This document shows, one piece after another, positions 9,309 to 27,022 of a DNA stretch of 38,768 nt; position 1 is the first letter of the stretch, and each line of letters opens with the position of its first letter. The notes beneath the pieces are model-generated. The model saw only the letters and a list, made by a program, of their open reading frames with translations, ran no database searches and was not told where the DNA came from. The stretch lies in NCBI GenBank assembly GCA_011374975.1, contig DRNU01000222.1:1-38768 (forward strand). Reading direction: 5' to 3'. The DNA comes from Gammaproteobacteria bacterium (GTDB taxonomy: Bacteria; Pseudomonadota; Gammaproteobacteria; DSM-19610). The position numbers and the translations under genes were made by a program.

Positions 9309-11327
9309 TTACTCTGGCAGTTTGAAGCCGGCCACGGTTTTACCCATTTCGTCAGCCAGACTGGCGAGGTTACCGATGGAAGCCGAGGTTTCATTGGTAC
9401 CGGCAGAGGTCTGCGTGGTGATCTCCTGGATAACGTGCATGGTTTCGGAGATATTGGACGCGGCCTTGGACTGCTGGCGGGCGGAAGCAGAGATGTTCTG
9501 GATCAGGTTGGAAAGGTCGTCCGACACTTTCTGGATCTGGTCCAGGGCTTCGCCGGATTCCTCCGCCAGGCGCGCACCGTTCACAACACCGGCGGTACTC
9601 TGTTCCATGGAAATAACCGCTTCGTTGGTATCGGTCTGGATGGTCTTCACCAGTGTCTCGATCTGCTTGGTGGCGTTACTTGACCGTTCAGCAAGGCGCT
9701 GGACTTCGTCGGCAACCACCGCGAAGCCGCGGCCTGCCTCACCGGCCATGGCTGCCTGGATGGCAGCGTTCAGGGCCAGGATGTTGGTCTGTTCGGCAAT
9801 GTCGTTGATCAGTTCCACGATATCACCGATTTCCTGCGAGCTTTCACCCAGGCGCTTGATGCGTTTCGATGTTTCCTGGATGGTCTCGCGGATACGGTCC
9901 ATGCCCTCGATGTTACGCAATACCGTCTCACCGCCCTTCTTGGCGAATTCCACCGATTTGAGCGCCTTGTCAGCCGTCTCTTCGGAGTTCCTCGACACTT
10001 CGTCGATGGATACCGCCATCTCGTTGATAGCCGTCGTCGTCGAGGTGATTTCCTCTGCCTGGTGGATACTGGCCTCGGTCAGGTGCTGGGCCGTCTCCTG
10101 CGTCTGCCTGGCGGCCGAGGACACCTGGCCGGAGGTCTCGTTGATGGTGGTTACCATGTCGCGCAGGGCGTCAATAGTGTAGTTGACCGAGTCGGCGATG
10201 GCACCGGTGAAGTCCTCGGTAACCGTTGCATAGGTGGTCAGGTCACCGTCAGCGAGGTTACCCATCTCGTCCAGCAGACGAAGAATGGCTTCCTGGTTAT
10301 TGCGGTTCTCGGTCTCCGCGATCTTGCGGCGGTTCTCCTGGTCGCGGTACACCTGCATACCCAGCAGGAACAGGAACAGCAGACCAATGGCACCGAAGAC
10401 ATAGGCCATTGCCGGCTGTATGGCCCGTGCATCGGCAGCCAGCGCATAGCCGTTCTGCAGACGCACGGCCGAATCAAATATGTCATCTGACTGGATTGCA
10501 ATGCTTCGCGAAGCCTCCTGGACTTCCAGCAGATCGTCAGAAAGGTCCAGCAGTTCCTCAACATAGTCAGCCACGATGGTGAACAGCATGGATGTCTCGA
10601 ACAACTTGGCCTGGACATCTTCATTCTTGACCATGGCGATCACGTCGTTGCCGCGCACCATGCCGTCCAGCACTGAACCGTATTCCTCGACGTCTTCAGA
10701 GAAACGCTCGATCGCCAGCTCCACGTCGACACCGCTCAAGGCATGGTTGACGTTGTTGGCGATACGCTGGCTGAGCATCAGCTGGCGTGCTGCCAGGCTG
10801 ATCGCCTCGCGACTCGCCTTCCTGCTCATGAGGATATCGACAATCTCTTCGTCGTACGCCTGCAACCTGGGCATCAGCTCGTTGATCTTCTTGCTGGCCT
10901 CGGACATGATCGAAATGCCTTCCCTGCCGGCGAGCACGAAGTCGATACTCTTGCTGAACCCCGCCCAGTCCTGTTCCAGCGCGAACAGGTCACCTTCTAC
11001 GGCTTCCCTGCTCGGCGGCAGACCGGTCGCCGCGTTACCGTTGCGCTCATAAGCGAGCGTTTCGCCAAAGCGGTCCCGGTAATGCGTCAGCTGATCGAAC
11101 GCGGCTTCAACACCGGATGTCGCCTCAAGTGCCGATTTCGCGATCTGCTGCGACAGCACCTGCTGCTCACTGGTATAACCGATATATTCCTTGTCGTGGC
11201 CAGCTTCGATACCCACGTACCAGAACACACCAACCATGGCGCTCAGGGACAGCAGCGAGGCCACTATCAGATACATCGTCCTTTTGTTCGAACCCACTTT
11301 GGCGTGGGACTGTTTCTCGTTACTCAT
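9309..11327 (-). CDS. pilJ: PilJ, methyl-accepting chemoreceptor for type IV pili
   Basis: This 672-residue inner-membrane chemoreceptor has a first membrane segment at about residues 18-40. A helical periplasmic PilJ-type sensor region follows, with repeated [12 protein letters not shown] and [12 protein letters not shown]-like stretches. A second membrane segment ([18 protein letters not shown], about 310-330), a HAMP-like linker and a long coiled-coil signalling domain complete it. The highly conserved hairpin tip is present ([17 protein letters not shown] then [18 protein letters not shown]), which binds the CheW adaptors and kinase. In P. aeruginosa PilJ senses pilus-related mechanical or PilA input (established knowledge). 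The start at 11327 has CAGGAG eight bases upstream. A perfect 16-bp palindrome lies just 5' of it. Confidence 0.95.
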
Positions 11328-11342
11328 GCTTCGTCTCCTGAC

Positions 11343-11358
11343 AAGATCAGCTGATCTT
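11343..11358. promoter_or_regulatory. Perfect 16-bp palindrome upstream of pilJ
   Basis: The bases AAGATCAGCTGATCTT read the same on both strands. The site lies in the 74-base gap between pilI and pilJ, 15 bases upstream of the pilJ start and just before its ribosome binding site. It could be an operator for a dimeric regulator, or an RNA hairpin (six pairs, loop AGCU) affecting pilJ translation. No -10/-35 pair is convincing beside it. The function is inference; the symmetry is seen directly. Confidence 0.4.
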
Positions 11359-11401
11359 TTCCCCAGTAATTATCAAGCCGGTAAAATACAATCCATTCAT
11401 C

Positions 11402-11947
11402 TTAAATTGCGGCCTTCAAAAATTGCGGCGTTTCGGCGAGGTTATGCATGCTGAAAACACCCCAGTGCTCATTTCCAACCCTGAACCCGTGCGTCATGTA
11501 CTCGTGTATGCGCGCATCATCGCCCGGTAACTCATCACAGCGCTGCTCGTCACGGAAATGCCTCAGGCCCATGACGGCATCCACCACCAGGCCCGAATAG
11601 ACACCGTTGTGATTTACCACCAGTATGCGGCTGCGGCGATTCATTGCCGCCGGCCTGTCATACAGGTAACCCTGCAAATCCATGATCGGCATCAGGTTGC
11701 CGCGCACGTTGGCTATACCGCATACCCATATCTTGGTGCGCGGCACCTTGGAAAGACTCGGTGGCGTCAGTATCTCGGCAACTTCGCCCAGAGGGGCGAC
11801 CAGGTGCAGGTCGCCCAGCCGAAATCCGATACCCAGCCACTCATCATCGGACTGTTCCTGCTGCGGCAGTCCGTGCGCATGCTTCAGGCATTGCTGTTCC
11901 AGTTGCGCCAGCCACTCCAGCGGAGTCTGGCGGGAAGAACCCGACAT
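11402..11947 (-). CDS. pilI: PilI, CheW-like adaptor linking PilJ to ChpA
   Basis: This 181-residue protein has a single CheW domain (about residues 38-175). Recognisable parts are WLGIGFRLGDLHLVAPLGEV, VCGIANVRGNLMPIMDLQGYL and SRILVVNHNGVYSGLVVDAVMGLR. The RGNLMPIMDL strand is the hallmark of CheW proteins that bridge a receptor tip to the kinase. It sits between pilH and pilJ, as PilI does in P. aeruginosa, and is separated from pilH by 13 bases. A 37-residue N-terminal helix (PLEWLAQLEQQCLKHAHGLP) precedes the domain and is typical of PilI rather than of flagellar CheW. It acts in the cytoplasm in the polar receptor array. Confidence 0.92.
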   Translation of the reverse strand: MSGSSRQTPLEWLAQLEQQCLKHAHGLPQQEQSDDEWLGIGFRLGDLHLVAPLGEVAEILTPPSLSKVPRTKIWVCGIANVRGNLMPIMDLQGYLYDRPAAMNRRSRILVVNHNGVYSGLVVDAVMGLRHFRDEQRCDELPGDDARIHEYMTHGFRVGNEHWGVFSMHNLAETPQFLKAAI

Positions 11948-11960
11948 ATCCCTGTGCTCC

Positions 11961-12329
11961 TCAGGCGGCTTCCAGTACCGCGTTGATCTTTTCCATCAAG
12001 GTCTTCTCGACGACAGGCTTGGTCAGGAAGTCTTTTGCGCCCTGGCGCAACCCCCATACCCGGTCCGTCTCCTGGTCCTTGGTCGTCACAATGATGACCG
12101 GGATCTCGCCGGTTTCCGGATCCTTGGTCAACTGACGCGTTGCCTGGAAACCGTTCAGCCCCGGCATCACCACATCCATAAGAATCAGATCCGGTTTCAG
12201 CTGCCTGGCGAGTTCAATGCCTTCAGTGCCGTTTTCCGCCGTTTCCACCTCGAAGCCGTGTTTTTCCAGCATCCCTTTCAGGACGTGAGCTTCAGTCGGT
12301 GAGTCGTCTACGATAAGAATTTGTGCCAT
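11961..12329 (-). CDS. pilH: PilH, single-domain response regulator of twitching motility
   Basis: This 122-residue protein is a stand-alone receiver domain. The acidic pair is in ILIVDDSP, the phospho-acceptor is Asp52 in LILMDVVMPGLNG, the Thr switch is in IIVTTKD and the conserved Lys is in DFLTKPV. PilH is phosphorylated by ChpA and in Pseudomonas acts with or against PilG to balance pilus extension and retraction (established knowledge). The assignment as PilH rather than PilG rests on its position as second gene and on the DQETDRVWGLRQGAKDF stretch. Its upstream sequence GGTAAGAGC closely resembles that before pilG. Confidence 0.92.
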   Translation of the reverse strand: MAQILIVDDSPTEAHVLKGMLEKHGFEVETAENGTEGIELARQLKPDLILMDVVMPGLNGFQATRQLTKDPETGEIPVIIVTTKDQETDRVWGLRQGAKDFLTKPVVEKTLMEKINAVLEAA

Positions 12330-12401: not shown

Positions 12402-12863
12402 CTACGCCTGTACCTGTACGTGTTCCCGGATCGCACCCAGTAATTCGTCTTTAGTGAACGGTTTGGTCAGATACTGGTCTGACCCCACAATACGACCGCG
12501 TGCACGATCGAAAAGGCCGTCCTTGCTCGACAGCATGACAACCGGCGTTTGCCTGAACGCCTGGTTGTTCTTGATCAGCGCGCAGGTCTGGTAACCGTCG
12601 AGCCGCGGCATCATGATGTCGACAAAAATAATGTCCGGTTTTTCATCAGCGATCTTGGCCAGCGCTTCGAAACCGTCGGTAGCGGTAACCACTTCGCAAC
12701 CTTCCTTTTTCAGCAAGGTTTCCGCTGTGCGGCGTATTGTTTTGGAATCATCAATGACCATCACCTTCATACCTGCAACTCCTTCGCCGCCCGACGCACC
12801 CTCGGTGACTTCGGACTGTGTTTCCATTTCTTCTGTTTCTGCCGGATCTACAATGGTTTGCAT
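12402..12863 (-). CDS. pilG: PilG, response regulator driving pilus extension
   Basis: The receiver domain occupies residues 32-150 of a 153-residue product. It carries VMVIDDSKTIRRTAETLLKK, phospho-acceptor Asp82 in IIFVDIMMPRLDGYQTC, VVMLSSKDG and YLTKPFTKDEL, all highly characteristic of PilG. PilG is phosphorylated by ChpA and promotes pilus assembly and cAMP signalling in Pseudomonas. The 31-residue acidic leader is unusual. An internal ATG at 12770 has AAGGAG eight bases upstream and would give a 122-residue protein. I kept the ATG at 12863 because its GGTAAGAGCCAT context resembles the pilH start, but either or both could be used. It is the first gene of the cluster and is divergent from gshB. 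Confidence 0.9.
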   Translation of the reverse strand: MQTIVDPAETEEMETQSEVTEGASGGEGVAGMKVMVIDDSKTIRRTAETLLKKEGCEVVTATDGFEALAKIADEKPDIIFVDIMMPRLDGYQTCALIKNNQAFRQTPVVMLSSKDGLFDRARGRIVGSDQYLTKPFTKDELLGAIREHVQVQA

Positions 12864-20819: not shown

Positions 20820-21932
20820 TCAGGACTCGACCAGGGTCACACCTTCCAGCGCATTCTCGGCATCCAGGTCGCTGTCTTTCAGCTTGATCATCAGGCGCAC
20901 TTCGTTGGCCGAATCGGCGTAGTGGATAGCGTCGTCCTGGGTAATCTCCCCGTCGCGGTACAGCTCGTACAGGGCCTGGTCGAAGGTCTTCATGCCCTGC
21001 TGGTTGGAGCGCTTCATCAGTTCCTTGAGCTTGTGCACCTCACCCTTGCGAATCAGGTCCGCCGCCAGCGGGGTATTGATCAGCACCTCGACCGCAACCT
21101 GGCGCCCCTTGCCATCCGGTGTGGGGATCAACTGCTGGGCCAGGATCGCTTTCAGGTTCAGAGAAAGGTCCATCAGCAACTGGTCACGGCGGTCTTCCGG
21201 GAAAAAGTTGATAATGCGGTCCATCGCCTGGTTGGAGTTATTGGCATGCAGGGTCGCCAGGCACAGGTGCCCGGTTTCCGCAAAGGCAATCGCGTGGTCC
21301 ATGGTCTCGCGGGTACGGATCTCGCCGATCAGGATAACGTCAGGGGCCTGGCGCAGGGTATTCTTGAGCGCCACACCGAAAGATTCGGTATCGATACCCA
21401 CCTCGCGCTGGGTCACGATACAACCGGCGTGCTGGTGGATATATTCGATCGGGTCCTCGATGGTGATGATGTGCCCGGTACTGTTGTTGTTGCGGTAACC
21501 GATCATCGAGGCCAGCGAGGTGGATTTACCGGTGCCGGTGGCGCCGACAAAAATAATCAGGCCGCGCTTGGTCATGGCCAGGTTCTTGATACTCGGCGGC
21601 AGGTTCAACTCCTCGATGGTAGGAATCCTGGTCTCTATGCGACGCAGCACCATTCCACAGTGATTGCGCTGGTAGAACGCGCTGACACGGAAACGACCGA
21701 CACCCGAGGCGCTGATGGCAAAGTTGCACTCGTGGTCGAGTTCGAACTCCTGGCGCTGCTGGGCGTTCATGACACTCAGCACCACTTCGCGCGCCTGCTC
21801 GGGTGTCAGCGTCGATTGCGACACCGGCTTGATGCGCCCGTTGACCTTCATACTGGGCGGCATGCCCGCGGTGATGAACAGGTCAGAGCCCTGCTTGTGA
21901 ACCAATAGCTTGAGTAAAGAATTAAAATCCAT
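20820..21932 (-). CDS. pilU: PilU, PilT-like type IV pilus retraction ATPase
   Basis: This 370-residue secretion-type hexameric ATPase assists PilT in pilus retraction at the inner-membrane base of the pilus. The N-terminal PAS-like half (SDLFITAGMPPSMKVNGRIKP) precedes Walker A GATGTGKST (Lys136). The Asp box (IITIEDPIEYIH), Walker B (DVILIGEIRTRETM) and His box (HLCLATLHANNS) follow. The motif AADLIRKGEVHKLKELM and the acidic C-terminal tail (KLKDSDLDAENALEG) are typical of PilU rather than PilT. It starts 24 bases downstream of pilT and is presumably co-transcribed with it. Confidence 0.95.
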   Translation of the reverse strand: MDFNSLLKLLVHKQGSDLFITAGMPPSMKVNGRIKPVSQSTLTPEQAREVVLSVMNAQQRQEFELDHECNFAISASGVGRFRVSAFYQRNHCGMVLRRIETRIPTIEELNLPPSIKNLAMTKRGLIIFVGATGTGKSTSLASMIGYRNNNSTGHIITIEDPIEYIHQHAGCIVTQREVGIDTESFGVALKNTLRQAPDVILIGEIRTRETMDHAIAFAETGHLCLATLHANNSNQAMDRIINFFPEDRRDQLLMDLSLNLKAILAQQLIPTPDGKGRQVAVEVLINTPLAADLIRKGEVHKLKELMKRSNQQGMKTFDQALYELYRDGEITQDDAIHYADSANEVRLMIKLKDSDLDAENALEGVTLVES

Positions 21933-21956: not shown

Positions 21957-22994
21957 CTAGCTGAACTGTTCTTTGTTCATGGCCTTGGAGCGGGCATCAA
22001 GCCGGCTGATCTGGCCACGCTGCATCAGTTCCTGGAGGTTCTGGTCGAGCGTCTGCATGCCGACTGCCTGGCCGGTCTGGATGGCGGAGTACATCTGCGC
22101 AACCTTGTCTTCACGAATCAGGTTACGGATAGCCGGTGTACCAATCATGATTTCGTGTGCGGCGATACGGCCACCGCCGGTTTTCTTCAGCAGTGTCTGG
22201 GCGATAACCGCGCGCAGCGATTCCGACAGCATGGAACGCACCATGGTTTTCTCAGCGGCCGGGAACACATCGATAATACGGTCGATCGTCTTGGCTGCCG
22301 AACTGGTATGCAGGGTGCCGAACACCAGGTGGCCGGTTTCGGCCGCGGTCAGCGCCAGGCGGATGGTCTCCAGGTCACGCAACTCACCGACCAGGATAAT
22401 ATCGGGATCTTCACGCAGTGCCGAGCGCAACGCTTCGTTGAAGCCATGCGTATCGCGATGCACCTCGCGCTGGTTGACCAGGCACTTTTTACTTTCATGC
22501 ACGAATTCGATGGGATCCTCGATGGTGAGGATATGCTCGAAGCGCTCGTTATTGACATGGTCAATCATGGCCGCCAGTGTGGTGGATTTGCCGGAACCGG
22601 TCGGCCCGGTCACCAGCACGATACCGCGCGGCTGGTCGGCGATGTCCTTGAAACTGGCCGGTGCACCCAGCTCTTCCAGCGTCAGGATGGTCGACGGGAT
22701 GGTACGAAACACCCCGCCCGCGCCGCGGTTGTGGTTAAAGGCGTTGACACGGAAGCGCGCCAGGTTGGGAATTTCGAAGGAGAAGTCGGTCTCCAGAAAC
22801 TCCTCGAAGTCCTTGCGCTGCTTGTCGTTCATGATGTCGTAGATCAGACTGTGCACGGTCTTGTGGTCCAGCGCCGGCACATTGATACGGCGAATATCGC
22901 CGTCCACACGAATCATGGGCGGCAAACCTGCGGAAATATGCAGGTCAGAGGCGTTGTTCTTGACGCTAAAGGCAAGTAATTCAGCAATATCCAT
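21957..22994 (-). CDS. pilT: PilT, type IV pilus retraction ATPase
   Basis: This 345-residue ATPase (P. aeruginosa 344) depolymerises the pilus to power twitching. Key parts are SDLHISAGLPPMIRVDGDI, Walker A at residues 130-138 (GPTGSGKST, Lys136), HILTIEDPIEFVH, Walker B DIILVGELRD, and the His box VFGTLHTSSA. The AIRNLIRE element needed for PilT retraction is present as AIRNLIREDK. The ATG at 22994 has GGGA eight bases upstream. The frame stays open far upstream across proC, but that part is antisense shadow. The gene is divergent from proC with 166 bases between. Confidence 0.97.
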   Translation of the reverse strand: MDIAELLAFSVKNNASDLHISAGLPPMIRVDGDIRRINVPALDHKTVHSLIYDIMNDKQRKDFEEFLETDFSFEIPNLARFRVNAFNHNRGAGGVFRTIPSTILTLEELGAPASFKDIADQPRGIVLVTGPTGSGKSTTLAAMIDHVNNERFEHILTIEDPIEFVHESKKCLVNQREVHRDTHGFNEALRSALREDPDIILVGELRDLETIRLALTAAETGHLVFGTLHTSSAAKTIDRIIDVFPAAEKTMVRSMLSESLRAVIAQTLLKKTGGGRIAAHEIMIGTPAIRNLIREDKVAQMYSAIQTGQAVGMQTLDQNLQELMQRGQISRLDARSKAMNKEQFS

Positions 22995-23160: not shown

Positions 23161-23988
23161 ATGAAAAACAAGCAACTTGCCTTTATCGGCGCCGGCAATA
23201 TGGCGCGTAGTCTGATCGGCGGCCTGATCGCGGATGGCTGGGATCCTGCCGCCATTTCGGTCGCGGACCCTGACAAAGAGCAGCTGGCGACGCTGGCAGC
23301 CCTGTTCCAGGTACATACCGACCCCGACAACCACAAGGTCGCGGAAAACAGCGATGTGGTCATTCTGGCGGTCAAACCCCAGGTGATGCGTGTTGTGGCC
23401 AGGGACCTGGCCGCCAGCGTGCAACAACACCAGCCACTGGTCATTTCCATTGCCGCAGGCATTCGTGCCACCGACCTCGAGCGCTGGCTCGGCGGCAACT
23501 GCCCGCTGGTACGCTGCATGCCGAATACCCCGGCACTGGTGCAAAGCGGCATTACCGCGCTGTTTTGCAACCCGCATGTCAGCACTGAACAGAAGGATCT
23601 GGCCGAAACCGTCATGCGCGCTGTCGGGCTTGCGCTGTGGGTGGACGATGAAGACCTGATGGATGCCGTCACCGCCCTGTCCGGCAGCGGCCCCGCGTAC
23701 ATCTTCCTGATCATCGAAGCCATGCAGGAAGCCGGCGAGGAACTCGGCCTGGAAGAAAAAACCGCGCGCCTGCTGGCCCTGCAAACCGCATTCGGCGCAG
23801 CCAAAATGGCGCTGGAGAGCCGCGACGACGCTGCCACACTGCGCCAACGCGTAACCTCTCCCGGCGGCACCACCGAACGCGCCCTTGCCGTGCTCGAAAA
23901 CGGCGGCCTCAGAAACCTTTTTAATGACGCCCTGCGCGCCGCCCGGGACCGCTCCCGCGAGCTTGCACAGCAGCTCGGAGCCGAATAA
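23161..23988 (+). CDS. proC: Pyrroline-5-carboxylate reductase ProC
   Basis: This 275-residue enzyme makes the last step of proline synthesis, reducing pyrroline-5-carboxylate with NAD(P)H. The N-terminal Rossmann motif is FIGAGNMARSLIGGL, followed by VILAVKPQVM, VRCMPNTPALV and the substrate-site signature ALSGSGPAYIFLIIEAM. The C-terminal VTSPGGTTERAL is also diagnostic. No good ribosome binding site precedes the ATG. The stop overlaps the yggT start (TAATG). In Pseudomonas yggS lies between pilT and proC; here there are only 166 non-coding bases, where I see no convincing promoter or repeat. Confidence 0.97.
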   Translation: MKNKQLAFIGAGNMARSLIGGLIADGWDPAAISVADPDKEQLATLAALFQVHTDPDNHKVAENSDVVILAVKPQVMRVVARDLAASVQQHQPLVISIAAGIRATDLERWLGGNCPLVRCMPNTPALVQSGITALFCNPHVSTEQKDLAETVMRAVGLALWVDDEDLMDAVTALSGSGPAYIFLIIEAMQEAGEELGLEEKTARLLALQTAFGAAKMALESRDDAATLRQRVTSPGGTTERALAVLENGGLRNLFNDALRAARDRSRELAQQLGAE

Positions 23989-24557
23989 TGGGCAACAACT
24001 ACGTCACCAACCCCATAGAATTCCTGATCAACACCCTGTTCGGGCTGTATATCCTGCTGATCATGCTGCGTTTCCTGCTGGCCGTGGTACGTGCCGATTT
24101 CTACAACCCGGTCAGCCAGTTCCTGGTCAAGGCCACCAACCCGCCGCTGCTGCCGCTGCGCCGCATCATCCCCGGTTTTGGCAAAATCGACACCGCCTCG
24201 CTGGTGCTGATGCTGGCACTACAGATGCTCATGCTGCTGCTGATCGTGCTGCTGCGCGGTGTGCCGGTCTCCATCACCGGGCTGCTGATACTGTCCCTGG
24301 CCGAGCTGATCGGGTTGCTGCTGAATGTCTTCCTGTTCTCGATTTTCATCCAGATCATCATCAGCTGGGTGAACCCGGGCACCTACAACCCGGTTATTTC
24401 CCTGCTGTACAGCCTCACCGAGCCGGTACTGCGCCCGTGCCGGCGCCTGATTCCGCCCATCTCCGGCCTCGATCTCTCGCCGCTGGTGGCGCTGATCGGC
24501 ATCCAGCTGGCCAAAATGCTGTTGCTTCCCCCGCTGCACCAGCTGGCTACGCTCTGA
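23988..24557 (+). CDS. yggT: YggT family integral membrane protein
   Basis: This 189-residue protein consists of two YGGT domains, each with two hydrophobic helices. The first runs from about residues 10-90 (LFGLYILLIMLRFLLAVVRADFYNPVSQ). The second runs from about 105-185 (IFIQIIISWVNPGTYNPVISLLYSLTEPVLRP). The repeated pattern of RADFYNP / VNPGTYNP followed by a Pro-Leu-Arg-Pro segment is the family signature. It is an inner-membrane protein of uncertain role, linked in the literature to osmotic or potassium homeostasis and, in other lineages, to division. It overlaps proC by one base, the usual proC-yggT-yggU arrangement. Confidence 0.93.
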   Translation: MGNNYVTNPIEFLINTLFGLYILLIMLRFLLAVVRADFYNPVSQFLVKATNPPLLPLRRIIPGFGKIDTASLVLMLALQMLMLLLIVLLRGVPVSITGLLILSLAELIGLLLNVFLFSIFIQIIISWVNPGTYNPVISLLYSLTEPVLRPCRRLIPPISGLDLSPLVALIGIQLAKMLLLPPLHQLATL

Positions 24558-24567
24558 CCCGTAAACC

Positions 24568-24864
24568 GTGCCTGCACCCTGGTATCACTGGCAGGACGGC
24601 AAACTGATCCTCGACATCCGCGTGCAGCCCCGCGCCAGCCACGATGAAATCGCCGGCACGCTCGACGGACGCCTGAAAATCCGCCTCACCGCCCCGCCGG
24701 TCGATGGCAAGGCCAACCAGACCCTGTTGAAATTTCTTGCAAAACTTTGCGCCGTCAGCAAAAGCCAGGTCACCCTGCTGTCCGGACCAGGCAGCCGCAA
24801 CAAGCGCGTTGCCATCAGCGCGCCGAAAAAACTGCCCGCCGGTGTCGAACCGCCCGAAATGTGA
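24568..24864 (+). CDS. yggU: YggU family protein (DUF167)
   Basis: This 98-residue protein matches the DUF167/YggU family (E. coli about 96). The signature LDIRVQPRASHDEIAGTLDG is followed by KIRLTAPPVDGKANQTLLKFLAK and VTLLSGPGSRNKRVAI. The function of the family is unknown; the fold is a small alpha/beta domain. The start is GTG at 24568, ten bases after the yggT stop, and no better start exists in frame. It completes the conserved proC-yggT-yggU group and is followed by 172 bases containing a candidate FliA promoter. Confidence 0.93.
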   Translation: MPAPWYHWQDGKLILDIRVQPRASHDEIAGTLDGRLKIRLTAPPVDGKANQTLLKFLAKLCAVSKSQVTLLSGPGSRNKRVAISAPKKLPAGVEPPEM

Positions 24865-24933
24865 CCGGGTTCACAGCATGCAGCCCCGGCCGGGGTTCAC
24901 TCTGGGCTCTCGCTAACCATTTAAAAACAGGAC

Positions 24934-24960
24934 TAAAGACACCCTCCCGGTGGCCGCTAG
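24934..24960 (+). promoter_or_regulatory. Candidate FliA (sigma-28) promoter of the dynamin-like gene
   Basis: TAAAGACA (24934-24941), an exact 11-base spacer and GCCGCTAG (24953-24960) resemble the flagellar sigma-28 consensus TAAAGTTT-N11-GCCGATAA. Eleven of 16 positions match, including TAAAG and GCCG-TA. Transcription would begin near 24967, giving a leader of about 70 bases. A CCCCGGCCGGGG palindrome (24884-24895) sits upstream. The match is seen directly; use by FliA is inference. Confidence 0.5.
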
Positions 24961-25036
24961 GATTGACGGATGCGCACGGGGTGCGTCGCCGCCCGTTGCC
25001 GACGGGAAACCAACAATAAACTGCAGGGAAAATTGC

Positions 25037-27022
25037 ATGAAGCGGGACCAACTCGACCAGCGCCTGTATTCCTACGCGGCATGGCGTGAAAAACTGATCG
25101 ACACCATCCAGAACTTCCAGTCCTGGCTGGAAGACCATGAACTGGCGTCTCCGGAGCAGGAATTCAGGATTTTCGAGACCATCGAGGCATTGCGCAAGGA
25201 TCGACTGACAATTGCTTTCGTGGCGGAATTCTCGCGCGGCAAAACCGAACTCATCAACGCCCTGTTCTTCGCCCATTATGGCCAGCGCCTGCTGCCCTCC
25301 GAGGCCGGACGCACCACCATGTGCCCGACAGAGCTGTTCTACGACCGCGACTATCCCGAGGCCTATATCCGCCTGCTGCCCATCGAAACCCGGCTGCAGG
25401 AACAGAGTATCGCGGAATTCAAACACGAGCCCATCCACTGGAGCCAGATCCAGCTGCACGTCGACAACCCCGAACAGGTGTCGCAGGCGCTGCATGAAGT
25501 CATCAAGACCCGCCTGGTGCCACACCAGAAGGCACGTGAACTGGGCCTCTACGACGAAAGCACCGACCCCTATTTCCGTGCCCACGGCAAACCACCGGAA
25601 CAGGTGGAAATCCCGCACTGGCGCCATGCCATGATCAGCTTCCCGCACGAACTGCTGAAGCAGGGACTGGTGGTGCTCGATACACCAGGCCTGAACGCCA
25701 TGGGCAACGAACCCGAACTGACCCTGAACATGCTGCCCGCCGCACAGGCAGTCATGTTCCTGCTCGGTGCCGATACCGGCGTAACCCGCAGTGACCAGGA
25801 AATGTGGGACCACCACGTACGCACCGTGCGCAAACGCTCCGACAAAAACCTGGTCGTGGTCCTGAACAAAATCGATACCCTGTGGGATGAGCTCAAGGAC
25901 ACGGCAGCGATCGATACCAGCATTGAAGCGCAACGCCTCGCCAGCGCCGAACAATTGCACATCGATCCCGACCAGGTATTCCCGTTGTCGGCGCAGAAAG
26001 GGCTGCTTGGTAAAATACGCGACGATGCACAACTGCTGCGCAAGAGCCGCCTGCCGGAACTGGAAAAATTCCTGTCGGAAACCGTGCTGCCCGCCAGACA
26101 GGAAATCGTACGCAACAACCTGGTCAGCCAGATCGGCGGCCTGGTCGACGAGAACCTCGCTCGCCTGGAAGAACGCAAGAACGCAACCACCCGCCAGCTC
26201 ACAGAACTGCGCTCGCTGCGCGGCAAGAACGCCGACGTCATCATGCACCTGATGAGCAAGTCACGCGAGGAACAGGCCGCCTACCTGCGCAACGTCGAGA
26301 GCTTCCAGAACAGCCGCCGGCTGCTGCAAAGCCAGGCACGCAACATGCTCGAATCGCTGAGCATGGATGCCCTCGACAAGCTCATCAACAAGACCCGTGA
26401 CAGCATGACCCACAGCTGGACCACGGCCGGCATGAAACGCGGCATGGAAACCTTCTTCGACGGCACCCGCGACAGCATGGAACAGGTCAGCGGTCACGCC
26501 GAGCAGACCCGCATGCTGATTCGAGCGACTTACAAGAAATTCCACGAAGAGCACGGCCTGCCGCAAATCACACCGAAACAGTTTTCCATTGCACCCTTCT
26601 CGGCAGAGCTGGAACGCCTCTACCAGGAAGCCGATGCCTTCCGGCGCAGCCCGGTCACTACCATGACCGAGCAGTCCTACGTGATCAAGAAATTCTTCAT
26701 CTCACTGGTCAGCCATACCCGCAGCCTGTTCTTCAAGGCCAACCAGGACGCCAATAACTGGCTGAAGGAAGTCATGAACCCGCTGGTCCGGCAGATCAAG
26801 GAACACAAGGCCACCATGGAAAAACGCCTTGAGACACTGCGTCGCATCAGCGAATCGCGTGACACACTTGAGGCACGCATCAAGGAACTGGATGCCGGCC
26901 TGAACGTCACCAAACGGCAGCTGGACGCCCTGCAGCAGATACGCCATACCCTGCACACGCCTCTGCCCGGCACGGGAACTGTCGCCGCAGCGGAGCCGGA
27001 ACAGCAGGAAGCCCTGGTATAA
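25037..27022 (+). CDS. Dynamin-like large GTPase, function unknown
   Basis: This 661-residue protein has a dynamin-type GTPase domain. The P-loop is at residues 63-70 (AEFSRGKT, with Ala in place of the usual first Gly) and the switch I Thr is in GRTTMCPTELF. G3 is DTPGLNAM (215-222) and G4 is NKID (277-280). The C-terminal half (about 350-661) is helical and charged, ending in coiled coil (KRLETLRRISESRDTLEARI), as in dynamin stalks. I see no clear membrane helix, so any membrane contact is probably peripheral. Bacterial dynamins remodel or protect membranes; the role here is unknown. The ATG follows AGGGAAAATTGC. The gene stands alone behind a FliA-like promoter, where Pseudomonas has metX-metW. 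Confidence 0.85.
   Translation: MKRDQLDQRLYSYAAWREKLIDTIQNFQSWLEDHELASPEQEFRIFETIEALRKDRLTIAFVAEFSRGKTELINALFFAHYGQRLLPSEAGRTTMCPTELFYDRDYPEAYIRLLPIETRLQEQSIAEFKHEPIHWSQIQLHVDNPEQVSQALHEVIKTRLVPHQKARELGLYDESTDPYFRAHGKPPEQVEIPHWRHAMISFPHELLKQGLVVLDTPGLNAMGNEPELTLNMLPAAQAVMFLLGADTGVTRSDQEMWDHHVRTVRKRSDKNLVVVLNKIDTLWDELKDTAAIDTSIEAQRLASAEQLHIDPDQVFPLSAQKGLLGKIRDDAQLLRKSRLPELEKFLSETVLPARQEIVRNNLVSQIGGLVDENLARLEERKNATTRQLTELRSLRGKNADVIMHLMSKSREEQAAYLRNVESFQNSRRLLQSQARNMLESLSMDALDKLINKTRDSMTHSWTTAGMKRGMETFFDGTRDSMEQVSGHAEQTRMLIRATYKKFHEEHGLPQITPKQFSIAPFSAELERLYQEADAFRRSPVTTMTEQSYVIKKFFISLVSHTRSLFFKANQDANNWLKEVMNPLVRQIKEHKATMEKRLETLRRISESRDTLEARIKELDAGLNVTKRQLDALQQIRHTLHTPLPGTGTVAAAEPEQQEALV

Follow-up and report, generated by a model that had tools for sequence, protein, structure and literature searches.

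Is the gene of a dynamin-like GTPase, situated among type IV pilus genes in a gammaproteobacterial genome, controlled by the flagellar sigma factor FliA (sigma-28)? The question is raised by two short boxes in the stretch of DNA analysed here (38,768 nucleotides, hereafter "the window"), which a first-pass annotation had read as a FliA-type promoter with an exact 11-base spacer, lying 76 bases before the dynamin-like gene. This arrangement was confirmed: the site occupies positions 24934-24960, between the end of yggU (24864) and the ATG of the dynamin gene at 25037, and 76 bases (24961-25036) separate its -10 box from this start codon (Table 1). The start itself is confirmed by all family orthologues with an intact 5' end, which align from residue 1. 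No sigma-70-like site was found within positions 24800-25060, and the sigma factor on which the proposal depends is indeed encoded in the genome (G000:C115, 269 bits vs a curated cut-off of 189.6).

Table 1. Positions of the predicted promoter elements and of the genes discussed in the text.
Feature	Position	Strand	Basis or remark
Putative -35 box, FliA-type promoter of the dynamin gene, TAAAGACA	24934..24941	+	TAAAG invariant in 16/16 aligned family sequences
Spacer, 11 bases	24942..24952	+	Between TAAAGACA and GCCGCTAG
Putative -10 box, FliA-type promoter of the dynamin gene, GCCGCTAG	24953..24960	+	GCCG[CT]TA in 16/16 family sequences
Further conserved element, GCTAACCATTTAAAAACAGGAC (GCTAAC..TAAAAA stretch, genus level)	24912..24933	+	Mean pairwise identity about 0.6 over the 20 bases preceding the -35 box
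Likely ribosome-binding site, CAGGGA	25024..25029	+	Sequence reading, 7 bases before the ATG
Dynamin-like GTPase, 661 aa	25037..27022	+	Pfam Dynamin_N (PF00350), 64.3 bits
proC, conserved upstream neighbour	23161..23988	+	Pfam; synteny
yggT, conserved upstream neighbour	23988..24557	+	Pfam; synteny
yggU (DUF167), conserved upstream neighbour	24568..24864	+	Pfam; synteny
Putative FliA-type promoter before pilT, TCAAGTTA-N11-GACGATAT (full site TCAAGTTAtgcagccggctGACGATAT)	23053-23026	-	16.8 bits
pilT, pilus retraction ATPase	21957..22994	-	Pfam T2SSE, 176 bits; ATG read at 22994
pilU-like ATPase, downstream of pilT	20820..21932	-	Pfam T2SSE, 140.8 bits
Putative FliA-type promoter before the pilG (Chp) operon, TAAAGTTT-N11-GACGATAG (full site TAAAGTTTactggccagcgGACGATAG)	13026-12999	-	20.0 bits
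pilG-like response regulator, first Chp operon gene	12402..12863	-	Pfam Response_reg, 100.8 bits
pilH, pilI, pilJ, Chp operon	9309..12329	-	Pfam Response_reg, CheW, PilJ, MCPsignal

Conservation of the site among family relatives

Judged on one sequence, the dynamin site is weak, not rare and hardly above chance. We scored it with an independent matrix, for which 25 E. coli FliA sites scoring high in ChIP-seq (PMC4183435) were used; the site reaches 12.8 bits, in the lowest part of the range spanned by these training sites, and a p value of 0.01 within its own 300-base upstream region. A search for the pattern TAAAG-N14-GCCGNTA returned 8 exact copies in the 3.3 Mb genome and, with at most one mismatch, 76 copies vs 177 of the reversed control pattern. 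Ranking the site from sequence alone was therefore abandoned as uninformative, the pattern being unenriched in the genome and the matrix score modest.

The comparison with relatives gave a far clearer picture. Within the family, whose members belong mostly to Thiogranum or Thiohalobacter according to named protein-search matches, TAAAG-N14-GCCG[CT]TA is kept in all 15 Thiogranum members with upstream sequence (the window included) and in one further genus, while two genomes of another further genus have the variant TCAAG-N15-GCCGCTA instead. Mean pairwise identity over the 16 family sequences amounts to 1.0 for TAAAG and 0.93 for GCCG[CT]TA, vs 0.39 for the 14 bases between these invariant cores and about 0.3-0.6 for the flanks. 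It is this conservation of the boxes, while the spacer between them drifts, that makes the dynamin site convincing. In the same alignment the 20 bases preceding the -35 box show a mean pairwise identity of about 0.6, above that of the spacer. The conserved stretch at 24912-24933 could possibly represent an UP element or an activator site; comparison of orthologue upstream regions did not recover it outside the family.

Related boxes precede the flagellar genes of these organisms. Most fliC promoters of the relatives read TAAAG(T/A)TT-N11-(A/G)(A/C)CGCTA, with the same TAAAG and a -10 core related to that of the dynamin site, and the cheV and flgK promoters read TCAAG-N14/15-GCCG(A/T)TA; the fliC promoter of E. 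coli is GACGATAA (PMC4183435). FliA itself was found in 18 of 20 family genomes; a search widened to the order added no genome to these 20. As to the two exceptions, G010 (82% complete) is also without a dynamin match, and G013 possesses flagellins and only weak fliA matches, which points to draft gaps in both cases. FliA-like sites were also seen in the genome of the window before a gene for a PilZ-like protein and a chemoreceptor-like gene (G000:C43:46955, L026, and G000:C152:27885, L029; products assigned by eye).

Distribution of the site in Gammaproteobacteria

A dynamin orthologue was identified in 63 of 232 sampled Gammaproteobacteria. Flagellin occurs in 49 of these 63 genomes vs 77 of the 169 that do not encode the GTPase (odds ratio 4.2, uncorrected for phylogeny). 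The order proC-yggT(-yggU)-dynamin is kept across families, in most of the closer members, and orthologues of other families at this same proC-yggT locus are likewise preceded by a FliA-type site.

For the class-wide test, the 300 bases upstream of each dynamin gene were scored with the E. coli matrix and p values were obtained from dinucleotide shuffles. Sites with p<0.05 were present at 43 of 69 loci in genomes with fliA vs none of 14 in genomes that lack it (Fisher 9e-6), the latter being a small sample of 10 genomes in 8 families and related genomes being non-independent; one genome with flagellin and no fliA match (G088) was left out of this comparison. Counted by family, and so corrected for member number, 16 of 32 families with fliA and none of the 8 without it had such a site. 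Scores of at least 10 bits were reached by 51% of the dynamin upstream regions vs 4% of 300-base windows from the same loci, and the antisense control of the upstream regions yielded 2 sites in 69.

The association has its limits: about 40% of the loci in fliA-containing genomes are without a significant site, more distant homologues (below about 45% identity) mostly lack a FliA-type site, and the site is missing from both G126 and G229, two members of one family of which only one has fliA. Some lone positives, e.g., G036, G103 and G246, may have arisen by chance within coding sequence. Genomes that lack fliA also retain the dynamin gene, so its biochemical role is not strictly flagellar. Some genomes carry two or three dynamin copies (G089, G112, G218, G072 and G192; loci L194, L204, L206, L207, L211 and L212), and the extra copies lie away from proC-yggT and have no significant FliA site.

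FliA-type sites before pilT and the pilG operon

The first-pass annotation had noted the neighbouring type IV pilus genes and reported no further site of the kind between genes. The latter was wrong: pilT and pilG, both on the minus strand, themselves carry conserved FliA-type sites, and both of these score higher than the dynamin site (Table 1). All 10 Thiogranum genomes that possess the pilG locus, that of the window among them, have identical boxes at this site, and their spacers vary. In the class-wide sample, a pilT site of at least 10 bits was present at 32 of 45 loci in genomes with fliA, a count that includes G088, and 16 of 24 families had one. The corresponding figures were 2.5% for background windows, 1 of 45 for the antisense control and none of 5 for loci in fliA-less genomes. 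The pilG site was found at 13 of 22 loci and is clear only in the family of the window, family f105 and a small number of others. A fliA-less genome (G050) matches the window in gene content and order, yet the dynamin, pilT and pilG sites are all missing from it. In the literature searched, FliA control of pilT or of the dynamin gene of the window was not reported, and a review of Legionella flagella mentions neither. The pilT and pilG sites behave like that of the dynamin gene. The idea of motility control stands and can be broadened: pilT, the Chp operon and the dynamin-like gene form a FliA-linked set.

The dynamin-like GTPase

The protein shows the GTPase motifs AEFSRGKT (with the first G replaced by A), DTPG and NKID, of which the residues GKT, DTPG and NKID are invariant across 19 homologues; the gene that follows it encodes a DUF4426 protein (Pfam). 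The predicted structural model is of moderate quality (pLDDT 76.6, pTM 0.48), and its top match is BDLP (2j69; E 7e-13, TM-score only 0.37). No clear membrane-spanning segment was recognized, the highest 19-residue hydropathy (1.25) falling inside the G domain, and a peripheral or regulated membrane contact at most can be proposed from the sequence. The earlier description of the GTPase as membrane-acting was inferred from its similarity to the dynamin family.

Probable FliA control and alternative explanations

Taken together, the conserved boxes, the sites in other families and their absence from genomes without fliA support the sigma-28 architecture assigned to the site at the outset, and we consider it highly probable that the dynamin gene is under FliA control through positions 24934-24960. 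A chance resemblance of two short boxes to a FliA promoter, in intergenic DNA rich in GC, is what the modest matrix score and the excess of the reversed control pattern in the genome would suggest; however, the boxes are specifically conserved in 16 sequences, other families show a site at the same gene, genomes lacking fliA do not, and the antisense control is nearly empty, so that coincidence has become extremely improbable and, as far as conservation goes, is refuted. Somewhat less remote, though still improbable, is that the boxes form a conserved element for another sigma factor or for a regulator overlapping the promoter, with FliA not the main regulator. The additional conserved stretch GCTAAC..TAAAAA just upstream of the boxes in the genus would fit such a binder, but the 11-base spacing, the -35 variants TAAAG and TCAAG and the -10 variants are all FliA-like, as before fliC, cheV and flgK in the family, and the site depends on the presence of fliA.

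As to the function of the product, we offer only a tentative and rather doubtful proposal: the protein may be a GTPase built like BDLP/IniA, either cytosolic or peripheral to the membrane, which supports the inner membrane or the motility machinery at the pole while cells swim and make contact with surfaces. Also compatible with FliA control, and to our minds unlikelier still, is a role like that of RdcA (YjdA, CrfC), a dynamin-like GTPase of the FlhDC/FliA regulon of E. coli whose expression is FliA-dependent (PMC6510439, PMC4183435) and which activates the diguanylate cyclase DgcE via the MASE1 domain of the latter (PMC6510439); a soluble GTPase of this sort would dock on and activate a diguanylate cyclase and thereby link motility to c-di-GMP. 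This precedent and the fact that no membrane-spanning segment stands out in the GTPase of the window are consistent with such a role, but the similarity to RdcA covers no more than a portion of the G domain (28% identity over 162 aa), the docking domain MASE1 was absent from the draft genome of the window (88.8% complete) and detected in just 3 of the 20 genomes of the family, and a search for RdcB, a single-sequence query run without a positive control, gave no match in the 20 family genomes. The GTPase was accordingly rejected as an RdcA orthologue, on the limited identity and the rarity of MASE1 in the family, and the exact DgcE/MASE1 mechanism seems unlikely in this lineage.

Under FliA control, RNA polymerase carrying this sigma factor would read TAAAGACA-N11-GCCGCTAG, and the transcript would be expected to start about 70 bases before the ATG. 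The dynamin gene would thus belong to the late genes of the flagellar regulon and stand apart from the preceding proC-yggT-yggU, and FliA would set the timing of GTPase production. The same factor may also drive pilT (with pilU) and, in the lineage of the window, the pilG/Chp operon, in which case flagellated cells would also produce the retraction motor, its chemosensory system and the GTPase.

Implications

These sequence comparisons suggest that flagellar regulation also turns on surface-pilus machinery and a dynamin-like GTPase. Flagella and retractile type IV pili are usually seen as separately controlled; the sites suggest that they share the flagellar sigma factor across a broad range of species, which bears on how swimmers ready themselves for surface contact. 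An uncharacterised dynamin-like family, found in more than a quarter of the Gammaproteobacteria sampled, gains a regulatory context and thus a testable role. It is conceivable, if somewhat speculative, that many flagellated Gammaproteobacteria possess a surface-contact branch of the FliA regulon, which comprises pilT(-pilU) and the dynamin-like GTPase and is joined in some lineages by the Pil-Chp operon, with the GTPase working in the handover from swimming to the surface. If so, a cell that has completed its flagellum would at the same time be made ready for pilus retraction and surface sensing.

Comparison with known systems

With the sigma-28 (FliA) class III/IV flagellar promoters the site shares TAAAG/TCAAG, the 11-base spacing, (G/A)(C/A)CGNTA and a fliA gene in the genome; it differs in its putative target, which lies 2 kb from pilT and is neither a flagellar nor a chemotaxis gene. 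Among bacterial dynamins, BDLP (2j69), IniA (6j72), SynDLP (7zw6) and the Campylobacter DLP pair (5owv) have the G motifs in common with the GTPase of the window and are the best structural matches of its predicted model. Identities to them are however only 12-16%, the gene of the window is a single one and not part of a DLP pair, and flagellar control of these four was not found in the literature searched. LeoA of enterotoxigenic E. coli, likewise a bacterial dynamin GTPase, is a lower-ranking fold match (4aur, E 8e-6) of weak similarity.

RdcA provides the one precedent for a dynamin-like GTPase tied to FliA. The site mapped for FliA in E. coli falls within yjdA itself and not upstream of it (PMC4183435), whereas that of the window lies upstream of the dynamin gene. 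The family described here would be a second FliA-linked dynamin-like GTPase, non-orthologous to RdcA, which suggests that dynamins have been recruited repeatedly to flagellar regulons.
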